Source of the DNA: Pontibacillus chungwhensis
Lineage (GTDB): Bacteria > Bacillota > Bacilli > Bacillales > BH030062
Assembly (NCBI RefSeq): GCF_030166655.1
Contig: NZ_CP126446.1
Location: 2,108,001 to 2,172,000, forward strand
Direction of reading: 5' to 3'
Length of the DNA: 64,000 nt
Part shown: positions 28,896 through 29,682 of the stretch, piece by piece
How the letters are laid out: each line of letters opens with the position of its first letter
Numbering within the stretch: position 1 is the first letter of the stretch
Notes under the pieces: generated by a model
Databases searched by the model: none
The model's input: only the letters and a program-made list of their open reading frames with translations
What the model was told of the DNA's origin: nothing
Translations under genes and position numbers: made by a program

Positions 28896-29099
28896 TCAAT
28901 TCCATTTAGCGCTGTTATTCTCTACGACTTGTAGTTCTTTTACAGATGTCACCATTTTGCTCTTGCAAATTGGACACGTAGGGGTTTCTTCAGACTTAAA
29001 GTTATCCCTCATCCATGCATTGCAATCTTCAGAGGAGCATTCCCAAATTTTCAGGTCCTGCTTCTTGATCTCTTCTTGTTTCTTTTTACCAAATGCCAT
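28896..29099 (-). CDS. ydjO: cold-inducible protein YdjO
   Basis: A 67-residue zinc-ribbon-like protein with Cys pairs in WECSSEDCNAWMRDNF and PTCPICKSKM, the YdjO pattern. It lies 144 bp downstream of a cold-shock protein gene on the same strand; a terminator separates them. GGAGGCG precedes the ATG. Cold induction is known for the B. subtilis relative. Its molecular role is unknown, with metal or nucleic acid binding suggested by the cysteines. Confidence 0.88.
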   Translation of the reverse strand: MAFGKKKQEEIKKQDLKIWECSSEDCNAWMRDNFKSEETPTCPICKSKMVTSVKELQVVENNSAKWN

Positions 29100-29208: not shown

Positions 29209-29240
29209 ATAAAAAGCTACCTTTGGAGGTAGCTTTTTAA
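29209..29240 (-). terminator. terminator of the cold-shock gene
   Basis: AAAAAGCTACCT/AGGTAGCTTTTT perfect stem directly after the stop codon. Confidence 0.9.
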
Positions 29241-29243
29241 TTC

Positions 29244-29444
29244 TTATAATTTAGTTACGTTAGCCGCTTGTGGTCCACGGTTACCTTCTGTTACTTCAAA
29301 TTCAACGCTTTGGCCTTCTTCAAGAGACTTGAAGCCTTCTTCGTTGATCGCACTGAAGTGTACGAATACATCGTCTTCACCTTGTACTTCGATGAAGCCA
29401 AAACCTTTTTCTGCGTTAAACCATTTTACTGTACCTGTTTTCAT
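29244..29444 (-). CDS. csp: cold-shock protein (CspA/CspB family)
   Basis: A 66-residue single cold-shock domain with both RNA-binding motifs, KGFGFIEV (RNP1) and VFVHFSAI (RNP2), plus the N-terminal [12 protein letters not shown]. It acts as an RNA chaperone. GGAGG sits ten bases before the ATG. The transcript predicted from the sigma-A promoter at 29654-29682 has a leader of about 200 bases containing three related 14-base elements that can pair in two exclusive ways, a layout suited to temperature-sensitive translation. No other gene shares the operon. Confidence 0.95.
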
Positions 29445-29466
29445 TAGAGAAAACCTCCATTACTAA

Positions 29467-29553
29467 TTTCTAATATGTTACTTTTATTAAGTAATAAAAA
29501 ATCACATATTAGAAAAAGTACTAATGTGAATTAATACTCTTTCTAATATGTGA
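29467..29553 (-). promoter_or_regulatory. repeat-built leader of the cold-shock mRNA with alternative helices
   Basis: In transcript order, element A is TCACATATTAGAAA (29540-29553), B is its exact complement TTTCTAATATGTGA (29502-29515), and C is TAACATATTAGAAA (29467-29480). B can pair with A (14 of 14) or with C (13 of 14) but not both. C ends nine bases before the GGAGG ribosome binding site. Confidence 0.6.
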
Positions 29554-29653
29554 ATCGGAGTATCTTTCAAATCGTAACTCATTACTTATCTTATGGTTCT
29601 AATGATGTCTTTATGCATTCGAGTTATATTCTGTTGTCTTCTTCATTAATTTC

Positions 29654-29682
29654 ATGATACTCCCTTCCTCACCATAAGTCAA
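29654..29682 (-). promoter_or_regulatory. sigma-A promoter of the cold-shock gene
   Basis: On the minus strand TTGACT, a 17-base spacer and TATCAT. It predicts a leader of about 200 nucleotides, long as is usual for cold-shock genes. Confidence 0.65.

Follow-up and report, generated by a model that had tools for sequence, protein, structure and literature searches.

The 5' leader of a cold-shock gene (csp) of Pontibacillus chungwhensis carries three short elements, A, B and C, and B is complementary to both of the others. This raises the question of which partner B takes and what makes it change from one to the other. We addressed this question for the csp leader in a stretch of 64,000 nucleotides (the window; NZ_CP126446.1, positions 2,108,001 to 2,172,000) and for related leaders in Bacilli. 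A preliminary description of the locus had read the two possible helices as a possible temperature switch of ribosome access.

The csp leader and its three elements

On the minus strand, csp (29244..29444) encodes a cold-shock domain protein of 66 aa (Pfam CSD, E 2.6e-31); its leader lies upstream of 29444, and all features below are on the minus strand. In the order of transcription, element A (TCACATATTAGAAA, 29540..29553) is followed after 24 nt by its exact complement, element B (TTTCTAATATGTGA, 29502..29515, with the core TAATATGTGA at 29511..29502), and after another 21 nt by element C (TAACATATTAGAAA, 29467..29480), a near-copy of A that is complementary to B at 13 of 14 positions and contains a core conserved in relatives (ACATATTA, 29478..29471). 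A gap of 8 bases separates C from the Shine-Dalgarno sequence GGAGG (29458..29454). The order A, exact complement B, near-copy C that had been described is thus real in all three parts, and B does have two mutually exclusive partners, an arrangement that is conserved in relatives. Folding and compensatory changes in relatives support a hairpin of A and B with 24 bp and a 4-nt loop (29502..29553), which is a predicted RNase III substrate, and a U-tract (29501..29496) follows directly after it. Upstream of A, a CUCC (29557..29560) pairs with GGAG of the Shine-Dalgarno sequence in the predicted uncut leader; it is common to the close genus relatives G001 and G004 and was not seen in more distant leaders of the genus. 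The consensus in relatives reads AUUCAC-N-UAUUAUAAAGAGUGAUC, loop, GGUACUUUUUAUAAUAUGUGAAUUUUU, spacer, RCAUAUUA, about 8-16 nt in most leaders, UUGGAGG and AUG.

The predicted fold of 29442..29640 (199 nt) has a free energy of -43.3 kcal/mol, compared to a mean of -26.6 kcal/mol for 200 dinucleotide shuffles, none of which folds as low (z -4.3). The longest exact inverted repeat, 14 nt, is less impressive, as shuffles have a mean of 9.0 but reach 18 in 500 trials. As for the flanks, a promoter-like TTGACT-17-TATCAT at 29654..29682 matches the consensus at 10 of 12 positions, and the promoter scan, with one match vs a shuffle mean of 1.9, performs no better than chance. A terminator scan finds a terminator-like hairpin downstream of csp (29210..29239), and a YdjO-family gene (Pfam 'Cold-inducible protein YdjO', 28896..29099) lies directly downstream of csp on the same strand.

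Distribution of the leader in Bacilli

Six of the eight genus genomes carry the leader, with no match in the other two, and a family sample of 9 genomes returned the same six positives. A covariance model built from five genus leaders (R1) matches 63 of 397 genomes and 18 of 135 genera of the order. All 30 R1 loci returned, and 26 of 27 further places, lie upstream of csp. A DNA pattern made from the B arm hits at least 120 stretches; among the 80 listed, a script found csp downstream in 72, inspection added 5 in which csp lies at a truncated locus edge or on the other strand, and no csp was seen in 3. Genera with the leader include Halobacillus, Lysinibacillus, Sporosarcina, Jeotgalibacillus, Kurthia, Listeria and Sporolactobacillus. 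The leaders of P. salipaludis (L117) and P. chungwhensis (L125) are the same as those in G001 and G004.

The wider model R2, built from 34 leaders (alignment A3), matches 175 of 398 sampled genomes of the class and 67 of 146 genera, and gives no match in 223 of the 398 genomes; because the model holds C as a sequence, it favours C-like stretches. Like the total of 63, that of 175 counts model matches, csp presence having been checked for the loci that were read, 72 of 75 of which have csp nearby in the case of R2. No csp was seen at L108, L124, L130 (one strand searched), L215, L269, L279 and L280, and these matches are taken as chance. A3 holds 34 of 39 leaders, leaving out L010, L107, L115, L132 and L217, and in A3 and in the pattern-scan rows B is largely fixed by the search pattern or filter. 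A larger alignment (A4) was made from 92 loci picked out of about 300; 150 of 171 matches were aligned, and 95 rows with the right strand, a Shine-Dalgarno sequence and a start codon were kept, 94 of them distinct and each of the 92 loci represented. An accidental AT-rich duplication, which had been considered for the repeats, is ruled out by the occurrence of the arrangement across the genus and far beyond it; because conservation settles the question left by the length of the inverted repeat, we take the arrangement as real.

Long inserts follow the A-B hairpin in two Sporolactobacillus leaders (L116 and L158) and three Listeria leaders (L129, L150 and L157), and the three Listeria leaders keep the C core 8-13 nt before GGAGG.

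Relation to other csp leaders

Neither the window nor the leader alone gives an Rfam match above the cut-off of the family. The cspA thermoregulator RF01766 scores 64 bits on the leader together with the gene, against a gathering score of 78 bits, and does not match the leader alone. Matches to animal and plant microRNAs on the leader lie far below the cut-offs, and we dismissed them as chance matches of a long AU hairpin. The csp leaders of B. subtilis cspB and cspC, which carry cold-shock boxes, resemble the window leader in being long 5' UTRs, in which mutations alter expression, but the available part of that paper describes no A/B/C arrangement (PMC8307031).

The other csp paralogues of the window's genome have leaders of other types. 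A second paralogue (L007, G000:C1:2177189+) carries a different long hairpin, GGTAACTTC...GGAGTTACC, followed by CTTTTTT, which may be terminator-like or another RNase III substrate; RF01766 scores above its cut-off there (95.9 vs 78 bits) over a stretch that takes in the gene, and by eye similar hairpins are seen in the genus relatives L017, L018, L027-L030 and L032. Three further paralogues (L005, L006 and L008) have a third leader type in common, GTTCG...GAGCAA.AATAGTAATA...GTG-C hairpin...GGAGG, which is perhaps, as a guess, the cold-shock-box type of B. subtilis.

The mapped RNase III cut of S. aureus cspA

The accessible text of Lioliou et al. (2012; PMC3386247) describes for the Staphylococcus aureus cspA leader an almost perfect 5' helix of 32 bp that RNase III cuts between G-53 and U-52. 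The processed mRNA carries a small 5' hairpin, its half-life rises from below 2.5 min to above 16 min, and it binds the 30S subunit better; processing takes place at both 37 and 15 °C, and the full-length transcript accumulates in cells without RNase III (PMC3386247). The same text states that the hairpin is conserved in Staphylococcus and Macrococcus and that a similar one exists at Listeria cspB (data not shown there), and the cspA cuts are also seen by EMOTE, both moved by one base, in the part of that report available (PMC3937233).

Model R2 also matches five genomes chosen from a single genus, with E values of 4e-5 to 6e-4 and every match lying immediately upstream of csp. Judging by the CspA protein, we take these genomes to be Staphylococcus-type. 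One of the five leaders, L277, has G at -53, U at -52 and U at -113, in agreement with the accessible text of PMC3386247, and has C at -88 where that text gives A-88; therefore, L277 may not be from S. aureus itself. In the other four, this G-U step is displaced by one or two positions. The B core of L277, UAAUAUGC, starts at U-52, and the complementarity of B with C begins exactly at this base. RNA that starts at U-52 folds with UAAUAUGC paired to C GCAUAUUG at its 5' end (-8.7 kcal/mol), and we infer that the small 5' hairpin published for S. aureus cspA is the B-C hairpin.

By its sequence, the window leader looks like a homologue of the S. aureus cspA leader. Both belong to the same type of gene and have a long near-perfect hairpin upstream of the Shine-Dalgarno sequence (24 bp in the window, 32 bp in S. 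aureus), and they have in common a B core at the mapped cut, a C core before the Shine-Dalgarno sequence and a predicted small 5' hairpin after the cut. The homology to G-53/U-52 places the predicted cut of the window leader at 29512/29511 (-68/-67 from AUG). The window leader differs from its counterpart in the U-tract after the hairpin, in a longer B-C spacer with an inner stem and in the CUCC able to mask the Shine-Dalgarno sequence, and its cut is placed by inference. If the promoter-like match is genuine, transcription would start about 200 nt upstream of AUG, compared to 113 nt in S. aureus cspA. The gene for RNase III (rnc) is present in the window's genome, and by analogy the enzyme would be expected to cut the leader in this organism as well.

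Loci L239 and L249 and the genomes G472, G685 and G514 (about 2.2-2.5 Mb; same family as the Staphylococcus-type genomes) show neighbouring copies of csp or matches to the leader, and every one of them has an A-B hairpin of its own.

Conservation of the A-B and B-C pairings

Over the 34 leaders of A3, 95.4% of the cells of A-B are paired, compared to 40-56% in slid registers. Two-sided changes occur in 7 of 22 pairs against a shuffled mean of 3.2, and the covariation score of 0.223 (0.154 shuffled) is reached by none of 500 shuffles. A-B is a selected helix with clear compensatory changes. For the 8-pair B-C helix, 98.5% of the cells of the same leaders are paired vs 19-57% in slid registers; no double change occurs, and the pairing does not exceed that obtained when C is permuted among the sequences. 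The 85 distinct B/C pairs from A4 gave the same picture, with 526 of 571 core cells pairing and again no excess over permutation. Compensatory changes in relatives, which the preliminary description had named as a test of its two helices, thus exist for A-B and not for B-C. Because double compensatory changes are absent and permutation gives as many pairs, the link between B and C rests on complementarity and position; the complementarity is kept by near-invariance and wobble changes.

This complementarity begins at the site matching the mapped S. aureus cut. B-C pairing in the 34 leaders amounts to 99.2% over the 7 core pairs and to 50.0% over the 4 positions across the predicted cut. Within the core of C, a transition that still allows a G-U pair to B is seen in 39 of 363 cells, and one that disrupts the pair in 3 of 272; position 7 of C (28 of 93, pair kept) is excluded from this count. 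The Fisher test (p = 1.9e-7) counts related sequences as independent, and its p value serves as a guide only. Position 5 of B is U in all 94 leaders; the opposite base of A is unable to pair in 11 of the 94, and the opposite base of C does pair in 87 of 90. These pair-keeping transitions and the invariant position of B favour a real B-C pairing.

The same alignments bear on another reading, in which C is a binding site for a protein or an RNA, for example for Csp, its likeness to A is secondary, and the hairpin is processed with the B-C pairing having no role. C is conserved as a sequence while B-C lacks covariation, and several families (L289, L296 and L297) have a variant C, CATGTT, with which B-C is wobble-rich in some lineages. 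CspA is also said to regulate its own synthesis in S. aureus, which counts for such a site. Against it stand the complementarity that stops exactly at the cut side, the mostly pair-keeping transitions in C, and a B-C spacer that can shrink to a hairpin loop, as in L256 and L277; the B-C spacing is 6 nt in L277 and more than 60 nt in the three Listeria leaders that keep C. We consider a binding site without B-C pairing unlikely, and prefer C as the second partner of B.

Predicted folds of the intact and the cut leader

We then compared the predicted folds of uncut and cut leaders. In the uncut window leader, the basal A-B pairs have mean probabilities of 0.99 to 0.92 over 5 to 75 °C, while B-C stays below 0.001 over the same range. 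At 37 °C, the B-C probability is below 1e-5, and forcing B-C costs 6.5 kcal/mol. When the window leader is started at the B core, the B-C probability becomes 0.97 at 37 °C, and the predicted 5'-terminal hairpin (29471..29511, -8.2 kcal/mol) encloses an inner stem, UUUUUAUU/AAUAAAAG.

These folds bear directly on the preliminary suggestion that the intact leader changes between A-B and B-C with temperature and so opens or closes the ribosome site. That csp leaders elsewhere act as RNA thermosensors agrees with the available part of a review, which names those of E. coli, Listeria (cspA) and S. aureus (cspB and cspC) as thermoswitches, and B does have two partners. Like these thermoswitches and RF01766 cspA, as far as the sources at hand describe them, the window leader is a structured csp leader with alternative folds; it misses the RF01766 gathering score and shows no predicted thermal refolding. 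As A-B prevails over the whole range of 5 to 75 °C, with B-C below 0.1%, no thermal switch is predicted, and temperature as the switch finds no support in folding programs, which ignore proteins and kinetics. In addition, transcription reaches C only after A and B, which would allow A-B to form first, and the S. aureus leader is processed both in the warm and in the cold, according to the accessible text of PMC3386247. A thermal switch between the two helices is highly unlikely in our view. Because related csp thermoswitches exist, temperature may act on this csp leader by another route.

Folding of the relatives points to the cut. Each leader was started in silico at the B core, and a B-C hairpin was counted when at least 4 core pairs were present in the minimum-energy fold. 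By this measure, 69 of 94 cut leaders form a 5'-terminal B-C hairpin, compared to 2 of 94 uncut ones. Pairing of 5 or more of the 8 leading nucleotides with the C region is found in 72 of 91 real rows, compared to 103 of 910 rows in which that region was shuffled. Of the 25 leaders without the B-C fold after the cut, L268, L274, L294, L295 and L300 keep the hairpin with no C recognisable by eye, and L112, L128 and L296 have B-C complementarity with another fold preferred. The csp proteins of the first five begin MIEGTVKWF or MVEGNVKWF, and several of these leaders have a CAACA-like stretch before the Shine-Dalgarno sequence.

After the cut, the residual A-B duplex of the window leader has -10.4 kcal/mol as two molecules, stronger before dilution than the -8.2 kcal/mol of B-C. 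This duplex would have to come apart before B-C forms, and dilution and decay of the A fragment would probably help; opposite position 5 of B, the residual stretch carries a mismatch in 11 of 94 leaders.

The predicted cut would also remove the CUCC. In the window leader, the probability that the Shine-Dalgarno sequence is unpaired rises from 0.05 to 0.74 upon cutting (37 °C), or from 0.16 to 0.66 with other ends. Over 94 leaders, the mean moves from 0.47 to 0.53, with 30 leaders gaining and 14 losing more than 0.1. Because the mean barely moves, we do not offer unmasking of the Shine-Dalgarno sequence as a conserved mechanism and rejected it as such; it is strong in the window leader and not general across the 94.

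The U-tract suggests a different role for the A-B hairpin, namely an intrinsic terminator modulated by Csp proteins in a csp feedback. The terminator scan flags this hairpin, and 84 of 95 leader rows have at least 6 T in 10 bases at its 3' end. In B. subtilis, CspB and CspD promote termination at two intergenic regions that were tested, and the opposite was seen in the pyr operon, as described in the portion of the source available. Several points tell against an attenuator: the U-tract is missing in all five Staphylococcus-type rows, the stem base has few G-C pairs, and no helix competing for A (an antiterminator) appeared in the folds made. It also leaves the conservation of C unexplained, and the accumulation of full-length transcript in S. 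aureus without RNase III (accessible text of PMC3386247) does not fit it. An attenuator is very unlikely on this evidence, and the A-B hairpin is better read as a substrate of RNase III.

Discussion

We consider it likely that the window carries an RNase III-processed leader in which B swaps from A to C after cleavage, giving a protective 5' hairpin. In the nascent mRNA, A and B would first fold into the long perfect hairpin, which would serve as the RNase III substrate. The enzyme would cut the 3' arm directly before the first base of the B core, the 5' fragment carrying A would leave, and the B core would become the new 5' end. Pairing of the freed B core with C could then form a short terminal hairpin, with 12 nt between its end and the Shine-Dalgarno sequence. 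Such a hairpin would protect the processed message against 5' decay by RNase J1 and leave the ribosome site open, and the swap would be driven by an irreversible cut and not by temperature. By analogy with S. aureus cspA, processing would probably make the window mRNA more stable and better translated.

The principle is already published for S. aureus cspA, and for this reason we place the window leader in the same kind. No paper on a leader family across Bacilli or on the partner swap as a conserved design was found in a literature search that covered few subscription journals. On balance, we favour the broader reading of a class-wide RNA family that has no matching entry in Rfam 15 and in which the RNase III cut is the switch itself; lying exactly where the two-partner strand begins, the cut would remove the blocking helix and at the same time license the protective 5' hairpin. 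The consensus and the covariance model supply a description of this leader, which has no Rfam match, and the reading makes a base-precise prediction: a 5' end at the B core and rescue by matched changes in B and C.

RNase III is usually viewed as a destroyer of structured RNA. The conserved leader seems built for activation of its message by an RNase III cut, and, if this is true, Csp output in much of Bacilli would depend on RNase III.
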